A stretch of 64,000 bases of DNA from Sedimenticola selenatireducens DSM 17993. GTDB lineage: Bacteria > Pseudomonadota > Gammaproteobacteria > Chromatiales > Chromatiaceae. The notes beneath the pieces are model-generated. The model had not been told where the DNA came from. It worked only from the letters and a program-made list of their open reading frames with translations, and did no database searches. The DNA lies in assembly GCF_000428045.1 (NCBI RefSeq), contig NZ_ATZE01000013.1, forward strand, positions 1 through 64,000, in the 5' to 3' direction. Of this stretch, positions 2,148-60,924 are shown piece after piece. A program made the translations under genes and the position numbers. Positions within the stretch are counted from its first letter, which is position 1. The number at the start of each line of letters is the position of its first letter.

Positions 2148-3538
2148 ATGTCTATTGATCCGGACACTCAACCCATTTCTCCCAGTGTTGAACAATTTTG
2201 GAAACGGTATATTGATGTCCTCAAACTGTTTCATATTCCTGAGCGATCCCGGCCCTGGTACCGGAAACATGTCCAGGAGTTCATTGATGCGCATCCCGGA
2301 GCGAAGCTCCGGACCCAAACCCCGGAAGCTATCGAACACTGGTTTGCCAAACAGGGACTGAACCCGCAGCTCTCCGCCTGGCAATTGCGGCAAAAAGTGG
2401 ATGCCTTGCGGCTGCTGTTCAGACAAATGCTGAAGTCGGGCTGGGCGAGCGAGTTTGACTGGGACCACTGGGCCGAAGGTGGGCAGCCGCTCAGCGACCG
2501 CCATCCAACGGTCGCCCGCAGTTATGAGACGACCAACGCGGGTGCCGATAGGCCCGGCAATCTGCTGGGCAATGCTTTTCCGAAGGTTTATGCCCGATTC
2601 ATCGCGGCGATTCGTGTCGCCGACCTGGCCATCAATACCGAGCAGAGCTACCTGGGTTGGATCAATCGTTTCCTTCGATTCCACAAAAGTTCACTCCCCG
2701 AGGACTGCGCAGAGCAAGAAGTGTCTTCCTTTTTAGAGCATTTGGCCGTTCGGCGCAAGGTTTCCGGGGCAACCCAGGCCCAGGCACTGAACGCACTGGT
2801 CTTTTTCTATGCCCGCGTCCTGGAAAAACCGCTGGGCGACATCGGCACATTCAAACGACCCAAACCTTATAAACGGATACCTACCGTATTAAGCCGACGT
2901 GAAGTAGCGCAGATTCTTGCCCGGACACAAGGGATGTCAGGCTTGATGGTGCGATTGATGTATGGCACCGGGATGCGGGTGATGGAGTGTGCCAGGCTAC
3001 GCATACTGGATCTTGACTTCGACTATCGCCAGATTACTGTCCGCGCGGGCAAGGGCAAAAAGGACCGGGTGGTGCCAATGCCGGATGCCCTGGCCGGCCA
3101 TCTGAAGCGGCATATCGCCTGGGTAACGGACAAGCATGCAGAAGATCTCAAGGCTGGCTTCGGGGCCGTGTATCTGCCGGAGGCGCTGGAGCGCAAATAC
3201 CCCAACGCCGCCAAAGAGTGTTCCGATGGCAGTATCTGTTTCCGGCCACTCGCATTGCTCCCGATCCTCGATCAGGCGTACTACGCCGACATCATATCCA
3301 CCAGTCGGTAATCCAGCGGGCGGTGCGCAAGACGGCCGTGGAAGTGGGACTCACCAAGCGTGTCACCAGCCACACGCTGCGCCACTCCTTTGCCACGCAC
3401 CTGCTGGAATCAGGCTCTGATATTCGGACGGTACAGGAGCTGTTGGGGCATACCGATGTGACCACGACGATGATCTATACCCATGTACTGGGAAAAGGCG
3501 GCGGCGGTGTGACAAGCCCATTGGACCGGCTGGAGTAA
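2148..3538 (+). pseudogene. intI: Integron integrase intI with N-terminal extension, one-base frameshift
   Basis: A tyrosine recombinase that would integrate and excise cassettes. The catalytic domain shows LMYGTGMRVMECARLR (first Arg), [25 protein letters not shown] and [13 protein letters not shown] (nucleophile Tyr). The integron-specific insert [15 protein letters not shown]...RWQYLFPA is also present. The frame breaks after GAGTG at 3220: restoring one G gives Glu-Trp-Phe-Arg-Trp-Gln and an uninterrupted protein of about 463 residues. Without it translation ends at 3311, before the His-Arg and Tyr motifs, so the product is inactive. Usual integron integrases are near 320-340 residues; here about 120 extra N-terminal residues resemble a second SAM-like core-binding domain. 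Transcription is divergent from the cassettes, as expected. A sequencing error cannot be excluded. Confidence 0.88.
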
Positions 3539-4211: not shown

Positions 4212-4287
<76 letters not shown>

Positions 4288-20946: not shown

Positions 20947-22123
20947 TCAACGCGCCGGTTCGGCGATGCCATGCTTCTTCATTTTCTCCCAAAGCGTCTT
21001 GCGGCTGATACCCAGTGCTTCCGCTGTATCGCCGATTCGCCACTGTTGCAGTGACAGGGCTTGTTCGAGGTAGCGTTTCTCACAGCGCTCAAGATGCCCG
21101 GCCAGGGTTTCGCCGTCGAGAGCCCCGCTCAAGGCTGGCTGTAGCACCTCGCCCAGCAGCGCTTCGGGGCTGATCTGTGGGCGTTCGCTGAGAATGCAGG
21201 CGCGCTCGATGGCGTGCTTCAGTTCACGGATGTTGCCGGGCCAGGGGTGGGCCAGCAGCCCGCGTTCCGCCGTCGCACTGAGGGCAAAAGGTGTTCCGCC
21301 GCGCTTGTCCGATTGTTCCGCCAGGAAGCGTCGCGCCAGCCACAGAATGTCCTCGCGGCGCTCGCGTAGCGGCGGAATGGGAAGGTGGATGACGTTGATT
21401 CGGTAGTAGAGGTCTTCGCGGAATCGACCGGTCTCGACGAGGCGGTGCAGGTCCTCATGGGTGGCACAAACTAGGCGGACATCCACCTTGAACGGGTTCT
21501 CCGCGCCCACCCGGGTGATGGTGCGCTCCTGGATCGCGCGCAGGAGCTTGACCTGCATTGCGGGCGGCATGTCGCCAACTTCGTCGAGAAACAGGGTGCC
21601 GCCGTCGGCCTGCTCGAAATAGCCGCGGCGCTCCTTGATGGCGCCAGTGAATGCACCCTTCTCGAAGCCGAAAAGCTCCGCTTCGAGAAGGGTGTCCGGG
21701 ATGGCGCCGCAATTGACCGCGACGAAGGGCCGCGCTCGTCCGCCGTCTGCCAAGGCATGCAGGCGCCGAGCGACCTGCTCCTTGCCCACGCCCGATTCCC
21801 CTGTGATGAGCACCGTGCCGTCGGAGGCCGCGAGGCGGCCCAGCATGCGGTCAATGGCCTGCATGGCGGGGGAGAGCCCAAGTCCGTCCTCGGCTTCGCC
21901 GGCCGGCTCCAATGGCCTCCCCAGTGTGCGGATACGCTGCACGAGGGCGTCAACATCGAGTGGCTTGGCAACATAAGCGGCGGCGCTGCAAGGCCAGCAG
22001 CGCATCCTTGCCGCGCGGGTGCCAGTCGCACGCGAGGCCTTCCATCTCGAAGCGTTCGCTCAACGCCTCTCCCATGAGCTCGTCATCCTCGACGAGACAG
22101 ATGCGCAAGGTATTCACTGTCAT
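20947..22123 (-). pseudogene. Sigma-54-dependent response regulator with most of the receiver deleted
   Basis: From an ATG at 22123 (overlapping the kinase stop as ATGA) the frame reads [20 protein letters not shown], a receiver N-terminus. About 46 residues in, the sequence jumps and shifts frame to [20 protein letters not shown], the receiver C-terminus. About 50 residues, including the phospho-acceptor Asp, are gone. The remaining frame (20947-22005, internal ATG) keeps the AAA+ domain: GESGVGKEQ (Walker A), [13 protein letters not shown] (GAFTGA loop), [13 protein letters not shown], and a Fis-type HTH at the end ([18 protein letters not shown]). A truncated activator could still be made and might be unregulated. 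Confidence 0.85.
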
Positions 22124-23565
22124 GCTGATTCTCCTGCCGGCAGGACGACGCGAAAGCGCGTCGTCTCCTCGAGGCGCTCGGCCACGATTTGTCCGCCCAG
22201 TTGCGAAACGATCTGATAAGTCACCCAGAGCCCTAGTCCCGAGCCATTCTCCTTTCCCGTCGCAAAGGGTTCGAAGAGGTGGCTCATGACCTCCTCGGGG
22301 ATGGGGCGGCCGGTGTTGAAAGTCTCCACGACGACGGCGCCGTCGGTACGACGGACCGTGCAGTGCACTTCCGCAGAGGGATCGGATGCCTGTATCGCGT
22401 TGAGCAGCAGGTTCATAAGGATCTGGCGCAGGAGCGTGGCGGGCAGCGGCACCTCCTCCGACAAATTGCTGTCGATGTCGATTGTCACCTTTCGCTTACG
22501 CGCTTCGGCGGCGAGCAGCGTGACGAGATCGTCGAGGTCCTGCGGCCCGAAGTCCCGGCTTTTCACCTTGGCCTCGACCAACATGGCGCCGACCGTGTCG
22601 CGGATCTGGGAAAGGCCGCGCTCGATCATTGCGACGGTCTTCAGGGTGCGCTGATCGTGGCCGCCGCGGCGCTTGAAGTTGTCGAGCGCCACCAGCATTC
22701 CACCGAGAGGATTGTTGATCTCGTGGGCGACTCCGGCGGATAGGCGGCCGATCGCTGCGAGGCGTTCGGAGCGGATCATCTCCTTTTCGAGCCGGTTCTT
22801 GTCCTGCAGCGTCCGCACCATCAGGCCGTAGGCGTCGAACAGGCGCCCGAGCTCGTCGCGATAGGGGTAGTCCGTGGGAGGGGGCGTATGCGGGACGCCC
22901 TCCGACACGCTGTCGATGCTTCGTGCCAGATCCACCAAGGGGCCGGCCATGCGCCGTCCCCAGTACCAGTTGATTGGCAGCAGCAGCGCAAGCACGAGCA
23001 GGCCGGTGAGTGCACCGCGCTGTGCGACGCTCCAAAAGCGCGGAAGAAATACGTCCTTCGAATGCACGACGACCAGCGTGCCCAGCCGCATGCCGTCGTC
23101 GGCGATCGGCACCGCGACATAGAGGTGCTGCTCCCCGATGTGCTCGACTGTCGCAGTCTCCGGTGCGGTGGCGAGCTGGCGCGCCAAGGCGGGATAGTCA
23201 CCCCCGATCTCCGACATCTGGATCGATAGCGGGGCAGCAACAGGATCCGTCGCCACGAAGACCTGCTGACGCTGGTCCAGAGCGAGAAGGATCTCCGGTT
23301 GAACCGTGCTGTCCCCGGGCGTAGCAGACAATGGTGCGCGAATGATCTCGAAGGCGCGCCACACTTCATCGTTGAGCATGGCCGGGAACACGTTCCTGGC
23401 CAATGCCCGCCCCAGGCTCGCGGAGCTGTCGACCAGATCCCGGCGAAGATCGTCGTACGCCTGGGCCATGAACGCCGCGGATACCGCCAATGCCGCAATG
23501 ACGATGAGGGCACTTCCCCAGAGTGGGACCTTGTAGCGGAAGCTGAGATCGAACCACCTTCTCAT
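22120..23565 (-). CDS. Membrane sensor histidine kinase of a three-component system
   Basis: 481 aa. Two membrane helices (about 13-35 and 184-203) flank a periplasmic sensor domain of about 150 residues, then HAMP. HisKA has the phospho-acceptor His281 in SAGVAHEINNPLGG; HATPase_c shows the N box LLLNAIQ, and GRPIPEEV, FATGKENGSGLGL. The start overlaps the stop of the periplasmic binding protein gene and the end overlaps the regulator start, giving a tight sensor-kinase-regulator operon. By analogy with AioX-AioS-AioR the binding protein would present the oxyanion to the kinase. Confidence 0.92.
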   Translation of the reverse strand: MRRWFDLSFRYKVPLWGSALIVIAALAVSAAFMAQAYDDLRRDLVDSSASLGRALARNVFPAMLNDEVWRAFEIIRAPLSATPGDSTVQPEILLALDQRQQVFVATDPVAAPLSIQMSEIGGDYPALARQLATAPETATVEHIGEQHLYVAVPIADDGMRLGTLVVVHSKDVFLPRFWSVAQRGALTGLLVLALLLPINWYWGRRMAGPLVDLARSIDSVSEGVPHTPPPTDYPYRDELGRLFDAYGLMVRTLQDKNRLEKEMIRSERLAAIGRLSAGVAHEINNPLGGMLVALDNFKRRGGHDQRTLKTVAMIERGLSQIRDTVGAMLVEAKVKSRDFGPQDLDDLVTLLAAEARKRKVTIDIDSNLSEEVPLPATLLRQILMNLLLNAIQASDPSAEVHCTVRRTDGAVVVETFNTGRPIPEEVMSHLFEPFATGKENGSGLGLWVTYQIVSQLGGQIVAERLEETTRFRVVLPAGESA

Positions 23566-24410
23566 TGCGCGCTGAAGCTCCGAATCATCGAATCGACCCG
23601 GTCATACAGGGCGGGATCACCGCGCATGAAACCGTCGAGGTTTAGGTGACGCAGCAGTCGCCTGCCGTCCTCGTCCTCGCTCATTGTCAGCAGCACTCGC
23701 TGCAGGTCGTCGAATACCGCAGCGCCGATCCCCGTGCGCGCTACAAACGGAGGAAAGCCGAACTCCGCCGATGTCGTCACCACCCGCGTGGCGGCGGTGA
23801 GCTCGGGTTTGACGGTGGACAGGGTTTCCCACACATGGCTGCTCACCGCTCCGCCCTGAGCGAGACCCGAGGCCACCGCCTCCACCGTCTTGCGATGTGA
23901 CCAAGTGAAGATCGTCTTGCGAAAGAACTGCTGAGGGTCGTAGCCCGCCTGCTGCAAGTCGAAGCGGGGACTCAAGTAGCCGGTGTTGGAGTACGGGTCG
24001 GCGTACGCGAAGACGGTCCCCTCGAGCTGCGTGATCGAACGCGTGCTGCGGTCGCCGGCCGGCACGATCAGGTAGGACTGGTAGTAGGGGCGTCCCCGAT
24101 ACAGCGGTATCGCCAGAAGCTTCATCTGTCCCTTGAAGAACACGAAGGGATATTCGCAGACCCACGCGAAATCGATCTTCTGCAAGCGAAGCAGATCCAT
24201 CGCTTCGGCGTAGCTGTCACGCCGGACGAACTCCACCGGGCGCTCGAGGCGGCGCTCCAGGTAACGGCGCCACTCTTCGAGGGCACGGTATTGATCGTTC
24301 GGGAAGGTCGCGGTCAGTCCGATCCGCACTGGTGCCTGATGCGCGGCGCCGGCATCCGGAGCGAGCGCCCCGAAGAGCAGGACTAGAACGGCGGCGATCC
24401 AGGTCTTCAT
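23562..24410 (-). CDS. PhnD-type periplasmic binding protein, probable oxyanion sensor subunit
   Basis: 282 aa. The chosen start MKTWIAAVLVLLFGALAPDA has a clear signal peptide; the frame upstream is open but unrelated. The PhnD/phosphonate-binding fold is shown by VRIGLTATFPNDQYRALEEW, DFAWVCEYPFVFF, VFAYADPYSNTGYLSPR and GFPPFVARTGIG. In the absence of ABC permease genes and with a kinase overlapping it, this is a ligand-sensing third component like AioX for arsenite oxidase. Here selenate or a related oxyanion would be the natural ligand. It is transcribed divergently from the reductase operon. Confidence 0.85.
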   Translation of the reverse strand: MKTWIAAVLVLLFGALAPDAGAAHQAPVRIGLTATFPNDQYRALEEWRRYLERRLERPVEFVRRDSYAEAMDLLRLQKIDFAWVCEYPFVFFKGQMKLLAIPLYRGRPYYQSYLIVPAGDRSTRSITQLEGTVFAYADPYSNTGYLSPRFDLQQAGYDPQQFFRKTIFTWSHRKTVEAVASGLAQGGAVSSHVWETLSTVKPELTAATRVVTTSAEFGFPPFVARTGIGAAVFDDLQRVLLTMSEDEDGRRLLRHLNLDGFMRGDPALYDRVDSMIRSFSAQ

Positions 24411-24420
24411 GCGTGTCGCT

Positions 24421-24477
24421 GTTACGAGTTCGTAACCCCAAATGAGCTTTTTTCCGGTCTTGTTACGCCAAGGTAAC
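24421..24477. promoter_or_regulatory. Two tandem inverted repeats, candidate enhancer sites for the sigma-54 activator
   Basis: GTTACGAGTTCGTAAC (24421-24436) and GTTACGCCAAGGTAAC (24462-24477) are 16-bp inverted repeats sharing GTTACG and GTAAC arms. Their centres are 41 bp apart, about four helical turns. They stand roughly 140-190 bp upstream of the candidate -24/-12 promoter, the usual place for enhancer sites, and also close to the start of the divergent sensor operon. Confidence 0.65.
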
Positions 24478-24596
24478 CCCGCCGACCTGGCGCGGCAACC
24501 GTTCTCTGTACCAACGGCACCGTTCCAAGCCCAACGTGCGCTTTCAGTTCGAGAATTTTCATGATTTTTCATGCGCTTGCGTCCAAATTTTGAGTG

Positions 24597-24613
24597 TTGG
24601 CCCGGTTTATGCT
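24597..24613 (+). promoter_or_regulatory. Candidate sigma-54 (-24/-12) promoter for the reductase operon
   Basis: TTGGCCCGGTTTATGCT has GG at 24599-24600 and GC at 24611-24612 with exactly ten bases between, close to the consensus TTGGCACG-N4-TTGCT. It reads toward serA, about 345 bases before its ATG. The adjacent sigma-54 activator gene supports it. Confidence 0.6.
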
Positions 24614-24883
24614 TAGGACTATCCAAAACCATGAATTGATTGTGGCTTTGATTCAACAGGAGAAGACGCAAACCTTGTGCCGGTTTCTTGCCCACCGAGG
24701 CTCACCGCGTGCGTATCGACCCGGGAATCATGCATCGAACTGCTCCGCAGGACGGAAGGCTGCAGCATGAACAAGGCAAGGTCAGCCGGCCGGCACAGAT
24801 CATCCGTGATATTGCTTATGGATTTACGAGGATTTCGAAGAAGATGCAGGAAAAATATCAGAAGTTACTGACATGTCGCATGT

Positions 24884-24928
24884 TTGATCACCATCAACAA
24901 AGTACGCCAACAGTGAATGCACTGTTAC
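24884..24928 (+). promoter_or_regulatory. FNR box and -10 of a class II FNR-dependent promoter before serA
   Basis: TTGAT-CACC-ATCAA (24884-24897) is a perfect FNR/Anr consensus. TGTTAC at 24923-24928 is a possible -10, putting the start near 24932 and the box at about -41.5, the class II position. serA begins at 24959. The cluster also encodes an Fnr-type regulator. Confidence 0.75.
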
Positions 24929-24958
24929 CTACCCGGACGCAATCGAGTGAGGAAAGTC

Positions 24959-27703
24959 ATGAACAGTCCCGCTGACGGCACCAGCCGCCGTAGATTCCTG
25001 CAGTTCTCCCTGGGCGCGCTCGCGAGCGCGGCCGCGCCCTCCAGCCTGTGGGCCTTCTCCAAGATCCAGCCGATCGAGGATCCGCTCAAGGACTACCCCT
25101 ATCGCGACTGGGAAGACCTGTATCGCAACGAGTGGACTTGGGACTCGGTCGGCGTCATGACGCACTCCAACGGCTGCGTGGCCGGCTGTGCCTGGAACGT
25201 TTTCGTGAAGAACGGCATCCCGATGCGCGAGGAGCAGATCAGCGCCTATCCGCAACTGCCCGGCATTCCCGACATGAACCCGCGCGGCTGTCAGAAAGGC
25301 GCGGTGTACTGTTCCTGGTCCAAGCAGCCGGACCACCTCAAGTGGCCGCTGAAGCGGGTAGGCGAGCGCGGTGCGCGCCAGTGGAAGCGTGTCTCCTGGG
25401 ACGAGGCGCTGACCGAGATCGCCGACAAGATCATCGACACGACGGTGAATCGTGGGCCGGGCAACATTTACATGCCGAAGCGGCCTTTCGCTGTCATCAG
25501 CAACACGGCTTACACGCGGATGGCGAAGCTCCTGGGCGCCATCAGTCCCGACGTCTCCTCGATGACGGGCGACCTGTACCCCGGCATCCAGACGGTACGG
25601 GTGCCCGCGCGGACGGTGTCGACCTTCGACGACTGGTTTACTTCGGACCTCATCCTGATGTGGCACAAGAATCCGATCGTCACGCGGATTCCGGATGCCC
25701 ACTTCCTGATGGAGGCACGCTACAACGGCGCACGGCTGGTGAACATCTCGGCCGACTACAACCCTTCGTCCATCCATTCAGATCTCTTCGTGCCGGTGGC
25801 CTCCGGCACCGATGCCCATTTGGCAGCGGCGATCGTCAACGTGCTGATCGCCGGCAAGCACTACAAGGCAGATTACCTCAAGGAACAGACGGACCTTCCC
25901 TTCCTGGTGCGCACCGACAACGGCAAGTTCCTGCGCGAGAAGGACTTCAATGCGGAGGGCAGCGACGAGATCTTCTACGTCTGGGACACGAAGACCGGCA
26001 AGGTGGCCCCCGCACCGGGCAGCATGGGATCCAAGGACAAGACCCTCAGCCTGGGCGCCGTTGATCCCGCGCTCGAGGGCACGTTCAAGGCCGGTGACAT
26101 CGAAATCACGACGGTGTTCGAGCGCCTGAAGAAGGAGATCGCCCCCTACACGCCAGAATCCACCCAGGCGACCACCGGCGTGCATCCCTCGGTGGTGCGT
26201 CAGCTGGCCGGCTGGATCGCCGAGTGCAAGGCCCTGCGCATCCTCGACGGCTACAACAACCAGAAGCACATGGACGGCTTCCAGTGCGGGCGCCTGAAGA
26301 TCCTCATCCTGACGCTCATTGGCCACCACGGCACCACGGGTTCGATCGATACCACCTACGAGGGCTGGAAGCTTGAAGGTGGCAAGGCGCTGGGCACCGT
26401 TGAAGGGCGTCCCGGACGCAGCGTCTCCGCGGTGCTGGCGCAATGGGTGTGGGGCGAGCAGTACAAGCGCTCGAAAGCCTACTACGACGATGAGCAACTG
26501 CGTGCCGAACTGGGCTTCGGCGTCGATGACATGGAGGCGATGCGTCTCGAGTCGGAGGCCAAGGGCTGGATGCCCAAGTGGCAATCGATCAAGAACCCGG
26601 TGGTCAGCATCACCGGCGGCATCAACATGTTCGCCACGTCCAACGGCTACGAGCAGCTCAGGGACAATTTCCTCAAGCGCTGCGAGCTCAACGTGGTGGT
26701 GGACTTCCGCCTCAATTCCGGCGCGATGTACGCCGACATCGTCCTGCCGGCGGCGGGAAACACCGAGAAGCTCGACATTCGCGAAACCTCGGTCACCCGC
26801 TTCATCCACGCCTTCGGTCAGCCGGTGAAGCCGATGTACGAGCGCAAGACCGACTGGCAGATCCTTGTGGCGCTTGCGGCCAAGCTCCAGGAGCGGGCCA
26901 AGGCACGCGGCATCGGACGGGTCGAGGACCCGGAGATCAAGAGCTTCATCGACTTCGACAAGATCTACGACGAATTCACGATGGACGGCAAGGTGGCCAG
27001 CGACGAGCAAGCGGTGCGCTTCGTCATGGAAAGCTCCAAGGCTTTGGGGCCGGGCACCTACGAAGAAGCGATGACGAAAGGCTTCGTCGCGGTCGGCCCT
27101 TCGGCGGGCAAGACGGCTCCCGTCCCGAAGGACAAGCCGTACCGTCCCTTCACGGTGAACGTCACCGACAAGAAGCCCTACGGCACGCTCACCGGCCGTC
27201 TGCAGTTCTATGTCGACCACGACTGGTTCCAGCGCCTCGACGCGACTGTGCCCAAGCCACAGTACCGGGGCGGTGTGCTGGGGCCCAAGAAGTATCCCTT
27301 CGTACGCAACTCGCCGCATACCCGGTGGGGCATCCACTCCTTCGCGCGAACCGAGCAATGGATGTTGCGTCACCAGCGCGGCGAGCCGGACGTGCGCATG
27401 AACCCCAAAGCGATGGCCGCCAAGGGAATCAAGGATGGCGACATGGTCCGCATCTTCAACTCGTCGGGCGAGTTCTTCGCCATGGCGAAGGCCATGCCGG
27501 CGCTGCCCGAGAACATGCTCTTTACCGAACATGGCTGGGAGCAGTACCAGTACAAGAACATGACCCACTACAACAGCGTGAGTTCGGAGCTCATCAACCC
27601 GCTGGAACTCGTGGGCGGCTACGGCCACATCAAATTCACGTCCGGGGCGTTCAACCCTAACCGGATCTTCTACGAAACGACGGTCGACGTCGAGAAAGCC
27701 TGA
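24959..27703 (+). CDS. serA: SerA/ClrA-type selenate (or chlorate) reductase catalytic subunit
   Basis: 914 aa, a type II member of the DMSO reductase family that carries the bis-MGD molybdenum cofactor in the periplasm. Residues 1-32 are a Tat signal (SRRRFLQ). The H-C-C-C ligands of the FS0 cluster are His69, Cys73, Cys77 and Cys111; the probable Mo-ligand Asp205 lies in [10 protein letters not shown]. The C-terminal region has the MGD-binding [15 protein letters not shown]-type sequence. The ATG at 24959 is preceded by GAGGAAAG. Gene order A-B-D-C equals that of ser and clr operons. No chlorite dismutase gene is in view, which favours selenate, but sequence alone does not separate these substrates. 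Confidence 0.85.
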
Positions 27704-27714
27704 GGAACCAGATC

Positions 27715-28701
27715 ATGAGTCAGAGACAGTTGGCCTACGTATTCGACCTGAACAAGTGCCTCGGCTGCCACACCTGCACCATGGCTTGCAAGCAGTTGTG
27801 GACCAATCGCGACGGCCGCGAGTACATGTACTGGAACAATGTGGAGACCCGCCCCGGCAAGGGCTATCCGAAGAACTGGGAGCAGAAGGGCGGTGGCTTC
27901 GATAACGATGGCAATCTCAAGACCAACGGCATCATCCCGATCATGGCCGACTACGGCGGGCGCGTCGGGGACTTCAACCTTCACGAAGTCCTGCTCGAAG
28001 GGAAGGCCGACCAGGTAGTGCCCCATGAGAAAGCGACCTGGGGTCCGAACTGGGACGAGGACGAGGGCGCGGGCGACTTCCCGAACAACCATTCCTTCTA
28101 CCTGCCGCGCATCTGCAATCACTGTTCCAATCCGGCCTGTCTGGCGGCCTGTCCGACCAAGGCGATCTACAAGCGTCCGGAGGACGGCCTGGTGGTGGTG
28201 GATCAGACGCGCTGCAAGGGCTACCGCTACTGCGTCAAGGCCTGCCCCTACGGCAAGATGTACTTCAACCTGCAGAAGGGGCGTTCGGAGAAGTGCATCG
28301 GCTGCTACCCGCGCGTCGAAAAGGGCGAGGCGCCAGCGTGCGTCAAGCAGTGCTCGGGGCGGATCCGCTTCTGGGGCTACCGCGACGACCAGGACGGGCC
28401 GGTCTACAAGCTGGTGGACAAGTGGAAGATCGCGCTGCCGCTGCATGCCGAGTACGGCACCGAACCGAACGTGTTCTATGTGCCGCCCATGAATGTCACG
28501 CCGCCGCCCTTCGAGGAAGACGGCCGGCTCTCCGACAAGCCGCGTATCCCCATCGAGGACCTGGAAGCGCTGTTCGGACCACGCACGAAGGAGGCGCTGG
28601 CGATCCTCGGTCGCGAGATGCAGAAGCGCCGACAGGCTCAGCCCTCGGAGCTGACCGACATCCTCATCGGATTCACCAACAAGGACAGGTACGGAATATG
28701 A
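27715..28701 (+). CDS. serB: SerB/ClrB-type iron-sulfur electron-transfer subunit
   Basis: 328 aa, periplasmic partner carried by the Tat signal of SerA. Four cluster motifs are seen: CLGCHTCTMAC at residues 15-25, CNHCSNPACLAACP, CKGYRYCVKACPYG and CIGCYPRVEKG-EAPACVKQC. In the third the second Cys is Tyr (CxxYxxC), the mark of the [3Fe-4S] cluster in this subgroup. Electrons pass from the heme subunit SerC through these clusters to the molybdenum site. It starts 11 bases after serA and overlaps serD by four bases. Length equals that of known SerB and ClrB proteins. Confidence 0.9.
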   Translation: MSQRQLAYVFDLNKCLGCHTCTMACKQLWTNRDGREYMYWNNVETRPGKGYPKNWEQKGGGFDNDGNLKTNGIIPIMADYGGRVGDFNLHEVLLEGKADQVVPHEKATWGPNWDEDEGAGDFPNNHSFYLPRICNHCSNPACLAACPTKAIYKRPEDGLVVVDQTRCKGYRYCVKACPYGKMYFNLQKGRSEKCIGCYPRVEKGEAPACVKQCSGRIRFWGYRDDQDGPVYKLVDKWKIALPLHAEYGTEPNVFYVPPMNVTPPPFEEDGRLSDKPRIPIEDLEALFGPRTKEALAILGREMQKRRQAQPSELTDILIGFTNKDRYGI

Positions 28702-29279
28702 ACGCGCTGATCTACAACCCCGAAGCGCTTGCCGGCGGTTATCTGGCGATGGCTCAGATCTTCTCCTACCCGGACGCAGAACGTTGGCACCGGCTGACCG
28801 AGACCGGCCTGGTGGATCCTGCACTTCCCCGGGAAGAGCTGGAGGCGGAATACATCGCGGCATTCGAGACCGGGGTCGGCAAGGCGCCCCTGTCGCTGTA
28901 CGAAGGGCAGAATCGCCCGGACCTCGGACGCGACGGCATCCTTCAGGAACTGCTCCGCTACTACGAGTACTTCGACGCCCACCTCAACCAGGACGACCGG
29001 GAGTATCCCGACCATCTGGTCACGGAACTGGAGTTTCTGGCCTGGCTGTGCCTGCAGGAACACGCCGCCCTGCGCGACGGGCGCGACGCCGAACCGTTCC
29101 GCCGTGCGGCGCGGGATTTCCTCGAACGGCATCTGGCGGCATGGCTGCCTGAATTCCGCCGCCGCCTCGAAGCGACCGATAGCGCCTACGCGCAGTTCGG
29201 CCCTGCCCTGGGCGAACTGGTGGAGACCCACCGCAGCCGGCTCGGCGAGCAAGCACCGAAACTGGGAGAAATGCAATGA
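28698..29279 (+). CDS. serD: SerD/ClrD-type TorD-family assembly chaperone
   Basis: 193 aa, cytosolic. The TorD/DmsD/NarJ-like all-helical fold is seen in [43 protein letters not shown] and [19 protein letters not shown]. These chaperones hold the apo catalytic subunit for cofactor insertion before Tat export and are not part of the mature enzyme. The ATG overlaps the serB stop (ATGA) and the stop overlaps serC by four bases, so the four genes form one translationally coupled operon. Confidence 0.9.
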
Positions 29280-29995
29280 GAACATCCAGCATGATGAAGC
29301 GAATGGCGGCGATGAGCCTCGCCGCCGCTGCCGGATTGACGGCGGGGGCGGCAGCCGCGGCGGACGCTGCGCCCGAAGCGCAGCGCACCATCCAGGTCCT
29401 GTCGGTGAAAGGAGGAGATGCAGCCTCACCCAAGGCCGCAGTCTGGAAGAAGGCGCAGACAACCCAGGTCGCTCTGCAAACGGCCTTCCCTGGTCATGCC
29501 TCAATCGTCGGGACGGCCGTCACGCAACAGTTGACCGCTCAGGCAGTAAGGGCGGGCGACCGGCTGTTCGTCAAGCTGGCGTGGAATGATGTCACGGCCA
29601 ATACCGCGATCAAGGATACCGATCAATTCGTCGACGGCGCCGCGGTGCAGTTTCCGGTCAACGGCGAAGTCAGCACGCTGCCTTTCATGGGCGATGCCGA
29701 GCATGCCGTCAATGTATGGCACTGGCGGGCCGATGGTCGCACGCAGAACCTGATCGCCAAGGGTTTCGGCACTGCAACCCCGGTGCCGAGTGAAGGCTTG
29801 CGGAGTGCGTCGGTGCGTACCCGTGACGGTTGGGAAGTGGTCATCAGTCGGCCGCTGCAGGTCAAGGCCGAGGAAGGCGCGACCCTGCAGGGGCGCAGCA
29901 CCATGCCGATCGCGTTCGCCGCTTGGGACGGCGAGAACCAGGAACGGGACGGCCTCAAGGCCGTGACCATGGAGTGGTGGCAGCTGCGCTTCTGA
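29276..29995 (+). CDS. serC: SerC/ClrC-type heme b gamma subunit
   Basis: 239 aa with a Sec signal peptide (residues 1-28, [16 protein letters not shown]). The ethylbenzene-dehydrogenase gamma-type domain is shown by [51 protein letters not shown] and [17 protein letters not shown]. In SerC the heme b is held by axial Met and Lys; candidate Met in FMGD and Lys residues are present. It accepts electrons from a periplasmic cytochrome c. It ends the ser operon and is followed by a long hairpin. Confidence 0.88.
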
Positions 29996-30015: not shown

Positions 30016-30059
30016 CCTCGTCCGTGCCCCGCCTCCGTGGGGGCGGGGCACGGACGAGG
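30016..30059 (+). terminator. Long GC-rich hairpin after serC
   Basis: An 18-bp perfect stem, CCTCGTCCGTGCCCCGCC with its complement at 30042-30059, encloses an eight-base loop 21 bases after the serC stop. No T-run follows, so it may act as an mRNA-stabilising end or a rho-assisted terminator rather than an intrinsic one. Confidence 0.6.
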
Positions 30060-30161: not shown

Positions 30162-30914
30162 ATGCAGTGCGTTCTGACTAGAGCCCCGATATGCCCGTCG
30201 TGCCCGACGGGCGGCGGCACGCGGACCGACCCCGCCTTGGCTGGCACGCCGCTGTTCCGCGATCTGGCCGCGGGCACCCTGGCCGTGCTTTCGCAGCGGG
30301 CGCGGGTGCGCCACCTCGCCAAGGGCGAATATCTGCGCCCCCAAGGCGCGGCGCTGGAGGAGCTCCTCGTCGTCGTGCGCGGGACGATGCTGCTCACCGT
30401 GCCGCTCGCCAGCGGCGCGCCCAAGGTCGTGGGGATCATGGCGAAGGGCGAGGTGTTCGGCGCCCTCGACCTCTTCGGCCCGGTCCCGGGCATGCTCGCC
30501 GCGGTGGCCGAGCGCGAGGCGTGCATCCTCTGCATCCCCAAGGCGGCGGTGCTCGCCGCGCTGGGCTCAGACCACCGTTTCGCCGTCGGCCTGGTGGAAG
30601 TGCTGTCGGAGCACATCCACTGCCTCGCACGCGACATCCGCACCGCCTGCACGCGCGGTGCCGTCGAGCGCATCGCCGCCTGGCTGCTCGACCGGGCGGA
30701 GCTGCGCGCGGGGCGGGAGGTGGTCGCGCTGCCCGCCTCCAAGACCGTGGTGGCGCGCCTGCTCGGCATGACCGCGGAGAGCTTCTCGCGCGCGCTGCGC
30801 CGCCTCAAGGACGCGGGCGTGATCGAGGTGGTCCGCCACACCATCACCATCACCGACCCTGGCCGCCTCGCCGCGCTCGCCGGACAGGACGGATACCCGC
30901 CATGGCTGAACTGA
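30162..30914 (+). CDS. Crp/Fnr-family transcriptional regulator
   Basis: 250 aa from the ATG at 30162 with GGAG upstream. Residues about 30-145 form the cyclic-nucleotide-binding fold. Cys3, Cys11 and Cys14 at the N-terminus and Cys121/Cys124 mirror the FNR arrangement, where one Cys near 122 completes a [4Fe-4S] cluster. The HTH at the end reads KTVVARLLGMTAESFSRALR and has the E-x-x-SR recognition residues that bind TTGAT half-sites, one of which lies before serA. It is likely the local anaerobic activator of the ser operon. It overlaps moaA by 13 bases. Confidence 0.85.
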   Translation: MQCVLTRAPICPSCPTGGGTRTDPALAGTPLFRDLAAGTLAVLSQRARVRHLAKGEYLRPQGAALEELLVVVRGTMLLTVPLASGAPKVVGIMAKGEVFGALDLFGPVPGMLAAVAEREACILCIPKAAVLAALGSDHRFAVGLVEVLSEHIHCLARDIRTACTRGAVERIAAWLLDRAELRAGREVVALPASKTVVARLLGMTAESFSRALRRLKDAGVIEVVRHTITITDPGRLAALAGQDGYPPWLN

Positions 30915-35039: not shown

Positions 35040-35079
35040 CGCTTCTTCTCGGTTCATGCCATTCGACGAGGAGAAGCCC

Positions 35080-35946
35080 ATGCAGGTGGTGTCCATCATT
35101 TCGACCAAGGGCGGCGTGGGCAAGACCACGACGGCCGCCAACCTGGGCGGCTTCATCGCCGATGCCGGGCTGCGCGTGCTGCTGCTGGACCTGGACGTGC
35201 AGCCCACGCTGTCGAGCTACTTCACGCTGGACGTGCGCGCGCCCGGCGGCATCTACGAGATGCTGGCCTTCAACGAGCGGCGCATCGAGCAACTGGTGTC
35301 GCGCACCGCGATCGCGGGCCTGGACCTGGTGCTCTCCAACGACGACCGCGGCGAACTGAACACGCTGCTGCTGCACGCACCGGATGGGCGCCTGCGACTG
35401 CGCCATTTGCTCCCCGTCTTCCGCACGCACTATGACTTGCTGTTGATCGACACCCAGGGCGCGCGCAGCGTGCTGCTGGAGATGGCAGTGCTGGCGTCCG
35501 ACCTGGCGCTGTCGCCGGTGACGCCGGAGATTCTGGCCGCGCGCGAACTGCGCCGCGGCACACTGCAACTGATCGAGGACATCGCACCGTATAGGCACCT
35601 GGGCATCGAGCCGCCGCCGCTGCGCCTGCTCATCAACCGTGTGCATCCGGTGTCGTCGAACGCGCGGCTGGTCCAGCAGGCGCTGCGACAGGTGTTCCAG
35701 GAACAGGCCGGCGTGCAGGTGCTGGACACCGACGTGCCGGCCATCGAAGCCTATCCGCGCGCTGCGACACGAGGACTGCCGGTACATCGGGTGGAGTACC
35801 GGCAGCCGACTGGGCGCACGGCGCCCGCGGCGCTGGACACCATGCGCATGCTGGCCGGCGAGCTGTTCCCCGCGTGGCGGGAGCGCTTCGCGCTGGTCAC
35901 CGGCCGGGCCGATGCGGGAGGGGCCGGCCATGGCGAGCGCGCATGA
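35080..35946 (+). CDS. parA: ParA-family partition ATPase
   Basis: 288 aa from the ATG at 35080 with GAGGAG upstream. The deviant Walker A is ISTKGGVGKTTTAANLGG; Walker A' LLLDLDVQPTLSSYF and Walker B HYDLLLIDTQGARS follow. ParA-type proteins of ICEs maintain the excised circle and can affect transfer. It starts a backbone operon with a HicA-like gene (overlap of 17 bases) and parB. Confidence 0.94.
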   Translation: MQVVSIISTKGGVGKTTTAANLGGFIADAGLRVLLLDLDVQPTLSSYFTLDVRAPGGIYEMLAFNERRIEQLVSRTAIAGLDLVLSNDDRGELNTLLLHAPDGRLRLRHLLPVFRTHYDLLLIDTQGARSVLLEMAVLASDLALSPVTPEILAARELRRGTLQLIEDIAPYRHLGIEPPPLRLLINRVHPVSSNARLVQQALRQVFQEQAGVQVLDTDVPAIEAYPRAATRGLPVHRVEYRQPTGRTAPAALDTMRMLAGELFPAWRERFALVTGRADAGGAGHGERA

Positions 35947-42770: not shown

Positions 42771-44786
42771 ATGCGCGTGTTCCTGTGCGAGAAGCCGTCC
42801 CAGGGCAAGGACATCGCCCGTGTGCTGGGTGCCGGTCAACGCGGCAACGGCTGCTACAGCGGCGCCGGTGTCGTCGTGACCTGGTGCATCGGTCATCTGG
42901 TGGAGGCGGTTCCACCCGAAGGCTACGGCGAGCAATACAAGCGCTGGGCCATCGAGCAACTGCCCATTCTTCCTGAGCGTTGGCGTGTCGAGCCCAAGGC
43001 GGCGACCGCAGCGCAATTCAAGGTCGTGCAGCAGCTCGTCGCCAAGGCGGGCGAGCTGGTGATTGCGACCGACGCCGACCGCGAGGGCGAGATGATCGCC
43101 CGCGAGATCATCGACCTGTGCGGCTACCGCGGGCCGATTCAGCGCCTGTGGCTGTCGGCGCTCAACGATGCGTCGATCCGCAAGGCCCTGGGCACGCTCA
43201 AGCCGTCCGCCGAGACACTGCCGCTGTACTTCTCCGCGCTCGCCCGATCGCGTGCCGACTGGCTGATCGGGATGAACCTGAGCCGCCTGTTCACGCTGCT
43301 GGGCCGCCAGGCCGGCTACAACGGCGTGCTGTCGGTCGGGCGCGTGCAGACGCCGACGCTCAAGCTGGTCGTGGACCGTGATCGCGAGATCGCACGATTC
43401 GTCTCCATGCCGTATTGGGCCGTGGATGTGCTGCTATCCCATGCCGGCCAATCCTTCACCGCGAGCTGGATACCGCCCGAAGGCAGCACGGATGCAGCGG
43501 GTCGCTGCCTTCAGCAGCCGGTGGCGCAGCAGGCTGCGGATCGCATTCGCGCGGCACGCGATGCGCAGGTCGTGTCGGTGGACACCGAGCGCGTGCGCGA
43601 GGCACCGCCGCTGCCGTTCGACCTGGGCACGCTGCAGGAGGTGTGCTCCAAGCAGTTGGGCCTCGACGTGCAGGAGACGCTGGACATTGCCCAGGCGCTG
43701 TACGAGACGCACAAGGCGACAACGTACCCGCGCTCCGATTCGGGCTACCTGCCCGAGAGCATGCTGGCCGAGGTGCCGACCGTACTCGACAGCCTGGTCA
43801 AGACCGACCCCAGCCTGCGGCCGCTGATCGAGCGCCTGGATCGCCAACAGCGTTCGCGTGCGTGGAACGACGGCAAGGTGTCGGCTCACCACGGCATCAT
43901 CCCGACGCTGGAGCCCGCCAACCTGTCGGCCATGAACGAGAAGGAGCTGGCCGTCTACCGGCTGATCCGCGCCCATTACCTCGCGCAGTTCCTCCCGCAC
44001 CATGAGTTCGACCGGACGGTGGCGCAGTTCTCGTGCGGCAGTCAGTCGCTGGCGGCCGTGGGCAAGCAGATCGCCGTCATCGGCTGGCGTGAGGTGCTGG
44101 CGACGCCAGGGCCGGACGATGCCGATGGCGAGGATGCGCAGCGCAGCCAGGTGCTGCCCGCCCTGCATGCGGGCCTGTCCTGCCCGGTCGGAAAGGTGGA
44201 TCTCAAGGCGCTGAAGACGCTGCCGCCCAAACCCTACACGCAGGGCGAGCTGATCAAGGCTATGAAGACCGTCGCCAAGTTCGTGACCGACCCACGCCTG
44301 AAGCAGAAGCTCAAGGACACCACGGGCATCGGCACCGAGGCCACGCGCGCCAACATCATCAACGGTCTGATCGGTCGCGGCTACCTGGTCAAGAAAGGCC
44401 GTGCCGTCCGCGCTTCCGACGCGGCATTCACGCTTATCGACGCGGTGCCCTCGGCCATCGCCGACCCCGGCACCACGGCGGTGTGGGAGCAGGCGCTCGA
44501 CATGATCGAGGCCGGCCAGATGGCGCTGGACACCTTCATCGAGAAGCAGTCCGTGTGGCTCGGCCAGCTCGTGCAGCAGTATCGCGGCGCAACGCTCTCG
44601 CTCAAGCTGCCGCCGGCGCCGGCCTGCCCGCAGTGCGGCGCACCGATGCAGCAGCGCACGGGCAAGAGCGGCGCGTTCTGGTCCTGCTCGCGCTACCCGG
44701 ACTGCAAGGGCACGTTGCCGATCGAGTCCCCGACGGGCCGGCGCAGCGCACCGCGCAAGCGGCGCGCTGCCTCCAAGGCGTCCTGA
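42771..44786 (+). CDS. topB: DNA topoisomerase III (ICE-encoded TopB)
   Basis: 671 aa, type IA topoisomerase. The Toprim domain has MRVFLCEKPSQGKDIARVLG and the acidic triad in TDADREGEMIAREI. The active-site Tyr lies in KATTYPRSDSGYLPES. The C-terminus holds a zinc finger (CPQCGAPMQQRTGKSGAFWS, CSRYPDCKG). ICE-borne TopB separates transfer or replication intermediates. AAGGAGG precedes the ATG. Confidence 0.95.
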   Translation: MRVFLCEKPSQGKDIARVLGAGQRGNGCYSGAGVVVTWCIGHLVEAVPPEGYGEQYKRWAIEQLPILPERWRVEPKAATAAQFKVVQQLVAKAGELVIATDADREGEMIAREIIDLCGYRGPIQRLWLSALNDASIRKALGTLKPSAETLPLYFSALARSRADWLIGMNLSRLFTLLGRQAGYNGVLSVGRVQTPTLKLVVDRDREIARFVSMPYWAVDVLLSHAGQSFTASWIPPEGSTDAAGRCLQQPVAQQAADRIRAARDAQVVSVDTERVREAPPLPFDLGTLQEVCSKQLGLDVQETLDIAQALYETHKATTYPRSDSGYLPESMLAEVPTVLDSLVKTDPSLRPLIERLDRQQRSRAWNDGKVSAHHGIIPTLEPANLSAMNEKELAVYRLIRAHYLAQFLPHHEFDRTVAQFSCGSQSLAAVGKQIAVIGWREVLATPGPDDADGEDAQRSQVLPALHAGLSCPVGKVDLKALKTLPPKPYTQGELIKAMKTVAKFVTDPRLKQKLKDTTGIGTEATRANIINGLIGRGYLVKKGRAVRASDAAFTLIDAVPSAIADPGTTAVWEQALDMIEAGQMALDTFIEKQSVWLGQLVQQYRGATLSLKLPPAPACPQCGAPMQQRTGKSGAFWSCSRYPDCKGTLPIESPTGRRSAPRKRRAASKAS

Positions 44787-58767: not shown

Positions 58768-60924
58768 ATGGCCCAACCGCACGCGGTCGAGGTTCTGCTG
58801 CGGCCAGCGGTGGAGCTTTACACCGTGGCGGTCTGCACCGGCGCCGCGATTCTGTGCCTGGTGGCACCGTGGTCGCTCGCGCTGAACCCGCTGCTCGGCC
58901 TGGGCTCGGCGCTGGCTTTCCTGACCTTCGGCGCGATTCGCCTGCGCGATGCCTGGGCGATCCTGCGCTATCGCCGCAACATCCGCCGCCTGCCGCGTTA
59001 CGTGATGACCAGCCGCGACGTGCCGGTGAGTCAGCAACGGCTGTTCGTCGGCCGGGGCTTTCGCTGGGAGCAGCGGCACACGCACCGGCTGATGCAGACC
59101 TACCGGCCGGAGTTCCGCCGTTACGTCGAGCCGACGGCGATCTACCGGGCCGCCCGGCGGCTGGAGGAGCGGCTTGAGTTCGCGCCGTTTCCCGTCTCGA
59201 CGCTGGCGCGCGCGCTGGCCTGGGACAGCCCGCTCAACCCGGCGCGGCCGCTGCCGCCGGTCGGCGGACTGCCGCGCCTGCATGGCATCGAGCCGCACGA
59301 GGTCGACGTCACTCTGCCGCTGGGCGAGCGTGTCGGCCACACCCTGGTGCTGGGCACCACGCGCGTGGGCAAGACGCGGCTGGCCGAGCTGTTCATCACC
59401 CAGGACATCCGCCGCAAGGTCCGCGGCGAGCACGAGGTGGTGATCGTCTTCGACCCCAAGGGCGATGCGGACCTGTTGAAGCGCATGTACGTCGAGGCCA
59501 AGCGCGCCGGGCGCGAAGGCGAGTTCTACGTCTTCCATCTGGGCTGGCCGGACATCTCGGCGCGCTACAACGCGGTGGGCCGGTTCGGGCGGATCTCCGA
59601 GGTGGCCACGCGCATCGCCGGACAGCTCTCGGGCGAAGGCAACAGCGCCGCGTTCCGCGAATTCGCCTGGCGCTTCGTCAACATCATCGCGCGCGCCCTG
59701 GTCGAGCTGGGGCAGCGGCCGGACTACCTGCTGATCCAGCGCCACGTCATCAACATCGACGCGCTGTTCATCGAGTACGCCCAGCACTACTTCGCCAAAA
59801 ACGAGCCGAAGGCCTGGGAGGTCATCGTCCAGCTCGAAGCGAAGCTGAACGACAAGAACATCCCGCGCAACATGATCGGGCGCGAGAAGCGCGTGGTAGC
59901 CCTCGAACAGTACCTGTCGCAGGTGCGCATCTATGACCCGGTGCTCGACGGCCTGCGCAGCGCCGTGCGCTACGACCGGACCTACTTCGACAAGATCGTC
60001 GCTTCGCTGCTGCCGCTGCTGGAGAAGCTCACCACCGGCAAGATCGCGCAACTGCTCGCACCGAACTATTCCGACCTGTCCGACCCGCGGCCGATCTTCG
60101 ACTGGATGCAGGTCATCCGCAAACGCGCGGTGGTCTACGTGGGGCTGGATGCGCTGTCCGACGCCGAAGTCGCGGCGGCGGTGGGCAACTCGATGTTCAG
60201 CGATCTGGTCTCGGTCGCCGGCCACATCTACAAGTTCGGCATCGACGACGGGCTGCCCGGCGCCGCGGTGGGCGCCAAGATTCCGATCAACGTCCACGCC
60301 GACGAATTCAATGAACTCATGGGCGACGAGTTCATTCCGATGGTCAACAAGGGCGGCGGTGCCGGCGTGCAGGTGACGGCCTACACGCAGACCTTGAGCG
60401 ACATCGAGGCCCGCATCGGCAACCGTGCCAAGGCCGGCCAGGTGGTCGGCAACTTCAACAACCTGTTCATGCTGCGCGTGCGCGAGACCGCCACCGCCGA
60501 ACTGCTGACGCGACAACTTCCCAAGGTCGAGGTGTACGCCACGGCACTGATGAGCGGCGCCACCGACAGCTCCGATCCGCAGGGCAACACGGCGTTCACG
60601 TCCAACACCCAGGACCGCATCAGCAGCAACAGCGTGCCGTTGATCGAGCCCGCGCATGTGGTGGCGCTGCCCAAGGGGCAATGCTTCGCGCTGATCGAGG
60701 GCGGCAACCTCTGGAAAGTCCGCATGCCGCTGCCGGCACCCGACCCCGACGAAGCCATGCCGAAGGATCTGCAGGAGCTGGCCGGCTACATGCGGCAGCA
60801 CTACGTCGAGGCAGGAGACTGGTGGGAGACCCAAGGCATCCCCGGCCTGCAGGACAAGGCGCTGCCCGACGACCTGCTGGACGACTTCAAGCAGATGGCC
60901 GCCGCTGAAGAGGCCGAAGCATGA
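58768..60924 (+). CDS. traD: Conjugative coupling protein TraD (SXT/TraD family)
   Basis: 718 aa, VirD4-type inner-membrane ATPase that brings the relaxosome to the secretion channel. Two N-terminal membrane helices (about 13-60) precede the ATPase domain: Walker A LVLGTTRVGKTRLAELFI, then VVIVFDPKGDADLLKRMYVE, Walker B-type PINVHADEFNELMGDEF, and the Gln-containing VQVTAYTQTLSDIEARIGNR. The length is normal for the ICE TraD subgroup (TIGR03743). It overlaps the next gene by four bases. Confidence 0.94.
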   Translation: MAQPHAVEVLLRPAVELYTVAVCTGAAILCLVAPWSLALNPLLGLGSALAFLTFGAIRLRDAWAILRYRRNIRRLPRYVMTSRDVPVSQQRLFVGRGFRWEQRHTHRLMQTYRPEFRRYVEPTAIYRAARRLEERLEFAPFPVSTLARALAWDSPLNPARPLPPVGGLPRLHGIEPHEVDVTLPLGERVGHTLVLGTTRVGKTRLAELFITQDIRRKVRGEHEVVIVFDPKGDADLLKRMYVEAKRAGREGEFYVFHLGWPDISARYNAVGRFGRISEVATRIAGQLSGEGNSAAFREFAWRFVNIIARALVELGQRPDYLLIQRHVINIDALFIEYAQHYFAKNEPKAWEVIVQLEAKLNDKNIPRNMIGREKRVVALEQYLSQVRIYDPVLDGLRSAVRYDRTYFDKIVASLLPLLEKLTTGKIAQLLAPNYSDLSDPRPIFDWMQVIRKRAVVYVGLDALSDAEVAAAVGNSMFSDLVSVAGHIYKFGIDDGLPGAAVGAKIPINVHADEFNELMGDEFIPMVNKGGGAGVQVTAYTQTLSDIEARIGNRAKAGQVVGNFNNLFMLRVRETATAELLTRQLPKVEVYATALMSGATDSSDPQGNTAFTSNTQDRISSNSVPLIEPAHVVALPKGQCFALIEGGNLWKVRMPLPAPDPDEAMPKDLQELAGYMRQHYVEAGDWWETQGIPGLQDKALPDDLLDDFKQMAAAEEAEA

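Follow-up and report, generated by a model that had tools for sequence, protein, structure and literature searches.

The closest described relatives of the regulatory locus considered here are the AioXSR, ArxXSR and ArrXSR systems. AioR-type systems have been described, in the available part of one source, as working through RpoN (PMC7533571). The arsenic pocket of the sensor AioX is given as Y88, C106, Y131, S161, S163, H192 and D210, and the hydrogen bonds to D210 and C106 are named AioX-specific in the accessible portion of the same paper (PMC5908839). On the side of oxygen control, FNR is stated to induce the cld gene of Ideonella in an Escherichia coli reporter (PMC7349173, in the part available). 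Clr-like, ser-like and pcr-like operons have been described for Sedimenticola selenatireducens AK4OH1T (PMC5052931, likewise). In the searchable full-text literature (most subscription papers lie outside this scope) we found neither an account of substrate sensing by selenate-reductase operons of this type nor a name for the branch of sensor, kinase and regulator triplets described below.

The window, i.e. the whole stretch of DNA that was analysed, comprises bases 1-64000 of contig C4 of the 37-contig, 4,588,530-base genome of the marine sediment bacterium S. selenatireducens. Genes for a broken regulator, a kinase and an AioX-like sensor, all on the minus strand, are followed by a 548-bp intergenic region and then by serABDC/clrABDC. 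The features are as follows.

2148-3311, integrase
4212-4287, tRNA-Phe
20947..22123, minus strand, sigma-54 response regulator, broken into two frames, one with the N-terminal portion of the receiver and the other with the receiver end, AAA+ and HTH
22120..23565, minus strand, HAMP histidine kinase (HATPase_c and HisKA exceed their cutoffs; HAMP, at 23.8 bits, falls slightly short of its cutoff of 25)
23562..24410, minus strand, AioX-like periplasmic sensor (PBP), pocket D210S/Y212H/S163T
24421..24436, enhancer-like site 1, GTTACGAGTTCGTAAC, GTTAC-N6-GTAAC, 10 nt 5' of the likely start codon of the sensor gene
24462..24477, enhancer-like site 2, GTTACGCCAAGGTAAC, 41 bp start-to-start from site 1
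24598..24612, plus strand, predicted sigma-54 (-24/-12) promoter TGGCCCGGTTTATGC, 121 bp from site 2, with a probable start near 24624
24884..24897, perfect FNR box TTGATCACCATCAA, TTGAT-N4-ATCAA
24920..24925, plus strand, CACTGT, a putative weak -10 that stands where a class II promoter would have it relative to the FNR box, with a predicted start at 24932
24959..27703, plus strand, serA/clrA, type II DMSO reductase catalytic subunit (TIGR03479, 1332 bits, cutoff 985)
27715..28701, plus strand, serB/clrB iron-sulfur subunit (TIGR03478, 575 bits, cutoff 481)
28698..29279, plus strand, serD/clrD-type chaperone, by position as in annotated clr loci
29276..29995, plus strand, serC/clrC heme b subunit (TIGR03477, 237 bits, cutoff 170)
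30162..30914, plus strand, Crp/Fnr-family regulator, FtrB-like, not FNR
35056-35946, ParA-like ATPase
42771-44786, type I topoisomerase
58768-60924, TraG/TraD-like coupling protein

The alpha, beta and gamma subunit models of the Ser/Clr type II DMSO reductases all exceed their cutoffs in this operon, the likely start codon of which is ATG 24959, with AGGAAA immediately 5' of it. It is probably the clr-like copy of the genome, since its catalytic subunit is 90% identical to plasmid ClrA proteins (the references compared being ClrA and not SerA), versus 82% for a second copy on contig C8; the two copies are 83% identical to each other. When 369 genomes of the class were searched with SerA, this genome and just three others (37-42% identity) gave matches at E 1e-100. 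The single Cld-family gene found in the genome is a chlorite-dismutase-like gene on contig C26 (12948-13529, L113), 52% identical to Alicycliphilus Cld and away from the window operon, which no cld adjoins. No Rfam family reached its gathering score between 20000 and 33000, and no sigma-70 promoter or terminator was found by consensus between 24000 and 25200. The operon seems, from the gene content around it, to lie on an integrative element. Import of the module is likely because the window is GC-rich from 12 kb onward (61-71%, whole genome 56.6%), carries the integrase, ParA, topoisomerase and TraG/TraD-like genes listed above, and encodes a sensor whose closest relatives in the tree are from betaproteobacterial MAGs.

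Both GTTAC-N6-GTAAC sites are perfect, and they are the sole copies in the 64-kb window at up to one mismatch. Shuffled windows held 0.37 such copies on average, with two or more anywhere in the window in 5 of 100 shuffles, while among 5000 Markov-1 resamples of the 600-bp stretch before serA a single resample contained any exact copy and none contained two. The consensus of AioR reportedly reads GTTNC-N6-GNAAC. Neither a third site near the reductase start, as present at -75 in L040 and in the TtrA-like loci, nor an IHF site between enhancers and promoter was found in the window at up to one mismatch. The -24/-12 element has its GG at 24599-24600 and its GC at 24611-24612 with 10 bases between, and differs from TGGCACG-N4-TTGC at two positions; the probability that the stretch from site 2 to the gene holds one or more elements of this kind by chance is 3.3%. 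GG-N10-GC, conserved flanks and upstream enhancers, the marks looked for in a sigma-54 promoter, are all found in the window. The first-pass annotation had described two 16-bp inverted repeats 41 bp apart and a GG-N10-GC promoter 120-175 bp downstream of them. The repeats, at 24421 and 24462, are present above chance, and so is the promoter element found, with the qualification that it lies 121 bp from site 2 and that about 175 bp is its distance from the first repeat.

The geometry of this arrangement was compared in 20 triplet loci, with distances to the -24 GG measured from the outer site in the group nearest the sensor. It is 118-129 bp in all 14 loci of the clade to which the window's sensor belongs; outside the clade it is 121 bp in L110 and 42-88 bp in the other five. 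The -24/-12 elements of two clade loci (L107 and L108) have three mismatches to the consensus. Neighbouring sites are spaced 41-43 bp apart in 12 of the 14 clade loci and 93 bp apart in the other two (L012, L038), which are the C8 and S. hydrogenitrophicus serA loci. A spacing of 40-44 bp was seen in 20 of the 36 site-bearing sensor loci overall, and a second spacing class of 91-93 bp comprises seven triplet loci (L090, L093, L094, L095, L098, L012 and L038). As judged from these comparisons, the site pair together with the predicted -24/-12 element is a conserved module, and the view that the repeats act as enhancers, serving a sigma-54 promoter that an oxyanion-sensing triplet controls, is supported.

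Conservation upstream of the reductase gene was followed to a depth of 1300 bp (648 bp in L036) in 28 serA loci. Besides the window and its C8 paralog these comprise two clr loci from plasmids and every one of the 24 loci that a genome scan had yielded. Sites with at most one mismatch occur in all six loci having a directly divergent triplet (the window, L012, L025, L031, L038 and L040) and in none of the 22 without a triplet in the fetched locus. Within 600 bp upstream of serA there are 11 exact and five one-mismatch copies, versus 0.0 and 0.12 expected; L031 has one-mismatch copies only. The condition that the first-pass annotation had named for its own refutation, repeats not conserved in orthologous regions, is rejected. 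An AioX-like sensor at E up to 1e-30 is encoded in 13 of the 20 non-plasmid genomes behind the 22 loci. At least eight of these 22 have a clade triplet elsewhere in the genome, seven of them apparently on the contig of serA itself, and those triplets stand divergent to a TtrA-like molybdoenzyme with the same sites between sensor and enzyme, thereby extending the linkage rule and not breaking it. L017, with an 89% identical SerA, has no triplet in its 13-kb contig and no AioX-like sensor at E 1e-30 in its genome; its serA upstream region gave no convincing match to that of the window past the gene start, and it carries a -24/-12-like element of its own at -324.

A scan for AioX-like sensors gave 51 rows with three duplicates (L085/L111, L086/L112 and L101/L071), i.e. 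48 distinct sensors; of three match lists, 13 of 29, 11 of 14 (the three weakest left out) and 19 of 19 matches were examined. All 14 sensors of the window's clade have two or more sites (at most one mismatch) within 800 bp upstream. Since at least one site is also found at that distance in 22 of the 34 non-clade sensors, the GTTAC-N6-GTAAC site extends beyond the clade. The 12 siteless sensors comprise five alphaproteobacterial aio/arx records, a C36-type branch (L071, the first sensor of L042, L088 and L100), and L054, L092 and L099. The third triplet of this genome, on contig C36, has an intact regulator and no site within 800 bp of its sensor.

Throughout the genome there are eight exact copies of the site, versus three of the reversed control, and all eight lie upstream of molybdoenzyme operons, of which there are four: two copies in the window, two before serA on C8, three on C36 before a BCA-type molybdoenzyme operon (L013) and one on C8 before a 977-aa TtrA-like enzyme (L014). 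Neither of the last two operons (C36:109.7k and C8:119.4k) directly adjoins a triplet. Counted genome-wide in five genomes, the exact motif did not exceed the reversed control in three (5 vs 6, 1 vs 7 and 3 vs 5). Three sites before the BCA-type (PhsA/ArrA-like) operon are seen in two Sedimenticola species (L013:4722-4932 and L041:240-483), and a search out to 500 bp around the three C36 sites and around their L041 counterparts gave no -24/-12 candidate with up to two mismatches. A set of eight loci (L102-L109), from genomes that all carry serA, encodes TtrA-like enzymes 77-79% identical to the 977-aa C8 enzyme and divergent to a clade triplet; in all eight a third site lies about 70-100 bp before the start of the TtrA-like enzyme. 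No PDB relatives of this enzyme were found at E 1e-30.

The window sensor belongs to the AioX family (E 1.1e-64 to AioX, 6esv; 2.3e-47 to ArrX, 6x6b), and its reading frame and that of the kinase are intact. It keeps five of the seven AioX pocket residues named in the accessible text of PMC5908839, with S163T and D210S changed, and because it thus falls short of the arsenic pocket we class it, from its sequence, as a protein likely to work like AioX, ArxX and ArrX and not as one of them. T163, S210 and H212 (AioX numbering) are present in all 14 clade sensors, be they linked to serA or to a TtrA-like enzyme, versus S210 or H212 in none of the 34 non-clade sensors, 33 of which have D210; the exception, L098, a gene with stops, has I at position 210. 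T163 alone is also seen outside the clade. The 14 sensors form one clade in a 29-row tree (99/97 support). Because of the D210S/Y212H change in a pocket whose D210 hydrogen bond is named AioX-specific, the ligand of the clade sensors is probably an oxyanion other than arsenite. Linkage to the respective operons would point to selenate or chlorate.

The regulator gene next to the kinase is broken in this single draft assembly, which may be in error there. Similarity of its first frame, MTVNTLRICLVEDDEL..., to intact relatives stops at about residue 49, and the second frame takes up at the receiver end (YVAKPLDVD) and continues into AAA+ and HTH; about 54 residues including the region of the phospho-acceptor Asp are missing, in addition to the frame change. 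The regulators of C8, L025, L031, L038 and L040 have a full receiver. Of the window's gene there remains a frame of 352 aa (20947-22005) in which AAA+ and HTH are complete; if translated, this receiver-less frame (22005-20947) could activate transcription independently of any signal. Within the genome, the closest regulator that is intact is that of C8, 65% identical over the shared part and identical at 12 of 16 positions of the recognition helix. Regulation might therefore be decaying, with the sigma-54 branch dead as a result of the broken receiver and the operon left to FNR alone or constitutive. FNR-like boxes (at most one mismatch, within 600 bp) at 11 of the 22 serA loci without a local triplet would suit such an outcome; of the six loci with a triplet one, the window, has such a box. 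Yet the sites and the promoter are intact and keep the conserved geometry, sensor and kinase are uninterrupted, and an intact paralogous regulator with matching sites exists in the genome, so that we consider decay unlikely.

The FNR box is the sole one in the window; none arose in 100 shuffles and three in 5000 resamples, and genome-wide there are 16 such boxes versus none for the reversed control pattern. Twelve of the 28 serA loci have an FNR-like box (at most one mismatch) within 600 bp, one each, amounting to five exact and seven one-mismatch boxes versus 0.02 and 0.49 expected. TANNNT stands at the class II -10 offset of five of these 12 boxes, and of at most one at any other of 69 offsets tested, although L018 and L037 look alike and are possibly dependent, and the box of L021 is 513 bp out. 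Since relatives carry such a -10 at precisely this distance from the box, the window may plausibly hold a class II promoter of the FNR type. The first-pass annotation had put the perfect box at -41.5 of a second start. While the box itself is there, above chance, the -41.5 follows from the box alone, and the implied -10, CACTGT at -12..-7, agrees with the consensus at two of six positions (A-11 and T-7 only).

The same annotation saw matching regulators encoded on both sides, which proved half wrong, as the AAA+ regulator is broken and the downstream Crp/Fnr protein (30162-30914) is not FNR. The latter scores 29 bits with the FNR model (cutoff 228) and matches FtrB best, also below cutoff; it has the recognition motif E-S-F-S-R and C-X7-C-X2-C, without the C-X2-C-X5-C of true FNR, and no match to it was found in the other 27 serA loci at E 1e-15. 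Between serC/clrC and its gene (about 30019-30058) there is a very stable 20-bp GC-rich hairpin with no T run. The genome does encode an intact AAA+ paralog on C8 and a true FNR on C32 (C32:180852, 288 bits versus the cutoff of 228, with C-X2-C-X5-C and E-x-x-S-R).

A logic in which the oxyanion and the lack of oxygen are both required was also put forward at first. Both types of site are present above chance, and an anaerobic respiration operon could profit from such a gate. However, the FNR box lies about 260 bp downstream of the predicted sigma-54 start and is placed as a class II site would be for a start of its own, no connection between FNR and the sigma-54 promoter is seen, and none of the other five serA loci adjoining a triplet has an FNR box, at up to one mismatch, in the 1300 bp upstream. 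Because the predicted starts, about 24624 and about 24932, are some 310 bp apart and would belong to separate tandem promoters, OR-like or additive control is the default, and we regard the AND gate as improbable and do not uphold it. Because the FNR site (24884-24897) is situated within the predicted sigma-54 transcript and is followed by a weak class II -10 (CACTGT, 2/6), FNR bound there could instead repress, as a roadblock in the sigma-54 leader. We likewise give this little credence, as its position fits the class II boxes of relatives with their TANNNT, and as cld of Ideonella is activated by FNR with a -10, GAAGAT, that matches at 3/6 (PMC7349173, in the available part), though cld also has an extended -10 TG, which is absent from the window. 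Finally, that the pair is just an autoregulatory operator of the sensor operon is very improbable: the nearest site does stop 6-18 nt short of the likely start codon of the sensor in all six triplet-bearing serA loci (start codons as assigned in this analysis, least certain in L012 and L038), but a -24/-12 element directed toward the enzyme operon lies at a nearly fixed distance, and copies also precede the two molybdoenzyme operons without an adjoining triplet.

We consider it fairly probable that the operon has two independent promoters, a sigma-54 switch read by the C8 paralog and a weak FNR promoter, with additive or OR-like output. At the first, an oxyanion bound by the AioX-like sensor would signal through the HAMP kinase to an NtrC-type regulator, which would bind the GTTAC-N6-GTAAC pair on one helix face (about four turns apart) and activate the -24/-12 promoter 121 bp away. 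The most likely reader of the sites is the intact C8 paralog, since a receiver that could be phosphorylated is gone from the local regulator and since the paralog is similar over the shared part and in the recognition helix, and its own operon carries these sites too; some signal-independent activation may come from the local AAA+/HTH remnant. The second would be a weak class II promoter under the true FNR on C32, so that FNR provides an anaerobic baseline, the oxyanion provides induction and the outputs add. Site 1, just 5' of the sensor start codon, probably also represses the triplet. A sigma-54 module inherited with the triplet would then join, at this single locus, an FNR-type promoter like those of clr/ser relatives.

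Taken more widely, the D210S/Y212H branch of AioX-like triplets may sense selenate and/or chlorate and control ser/clr and TtrA-like operons via GTTAC-N6-GTAAC pairs about 120 bp upstream of -24/-12 promoters, with an imported copy in S. selenatireducens, its own regulator broken, having been wired into the resident regulon; for this proposal as a whole the balance tips slightly against. The locus offers a concrete candidate for sensing, with a sensor clade defined by a pocket change, a DNA site and a near-fixed promoter geometry. It would permit the prediction of selenate and chlorate regulons in MAGs and the design of selenate or chlorate biosensors, and it is an example of a respiratory operon, gained by horizontal transfer, whose control may rest with a resident regulator.

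Like AioXSR, ArxXSR and ArrXSR, the locus combines a PhnD-like sensor, a HAMP kinase and a sigma-54 regulator, encoded next to a molybdoenzyme operon that has a -24/-12 promoter, and its sensor retains five of the seven AioX pocket residues (PMC5908839, as far as available). Unlike these systems it has D210S and S163T plus Y212H in the pocket, linkage of the branch to a ser/clr or TtrA-like enzyme and, in the window, a broken regulator. Four alphaproteobacterial aio records (two with the same proteins) and one arx record have no such sites upstream of the sensor, and no motif common to the window and these loci was found except for one degenerate match in the NT-26 kinase gene, whereas the aio locus of the betaproteobacterium Caballeronia (L067) carries two copies with one mismatch each, at a spacing of 43 bp. 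With cld of the Ideonella chlorate transposon the window shares an FNR-type box in class II geometry, an imperfect -10 and the vicinity of chlorate-reduction genes (PMC7349173, in the portion available); the window box differs in preceding the reductase operon, in being accompanied by a predicted sigma-54 promoter and in having no cld beside it. The available part of the description of PcrPSR, from the perchlorate reduction islands, mentions no PhnD-like sensor; there, as here, kinase and regulator genes travel with a type II oxyanion reductase (PMC4623255).
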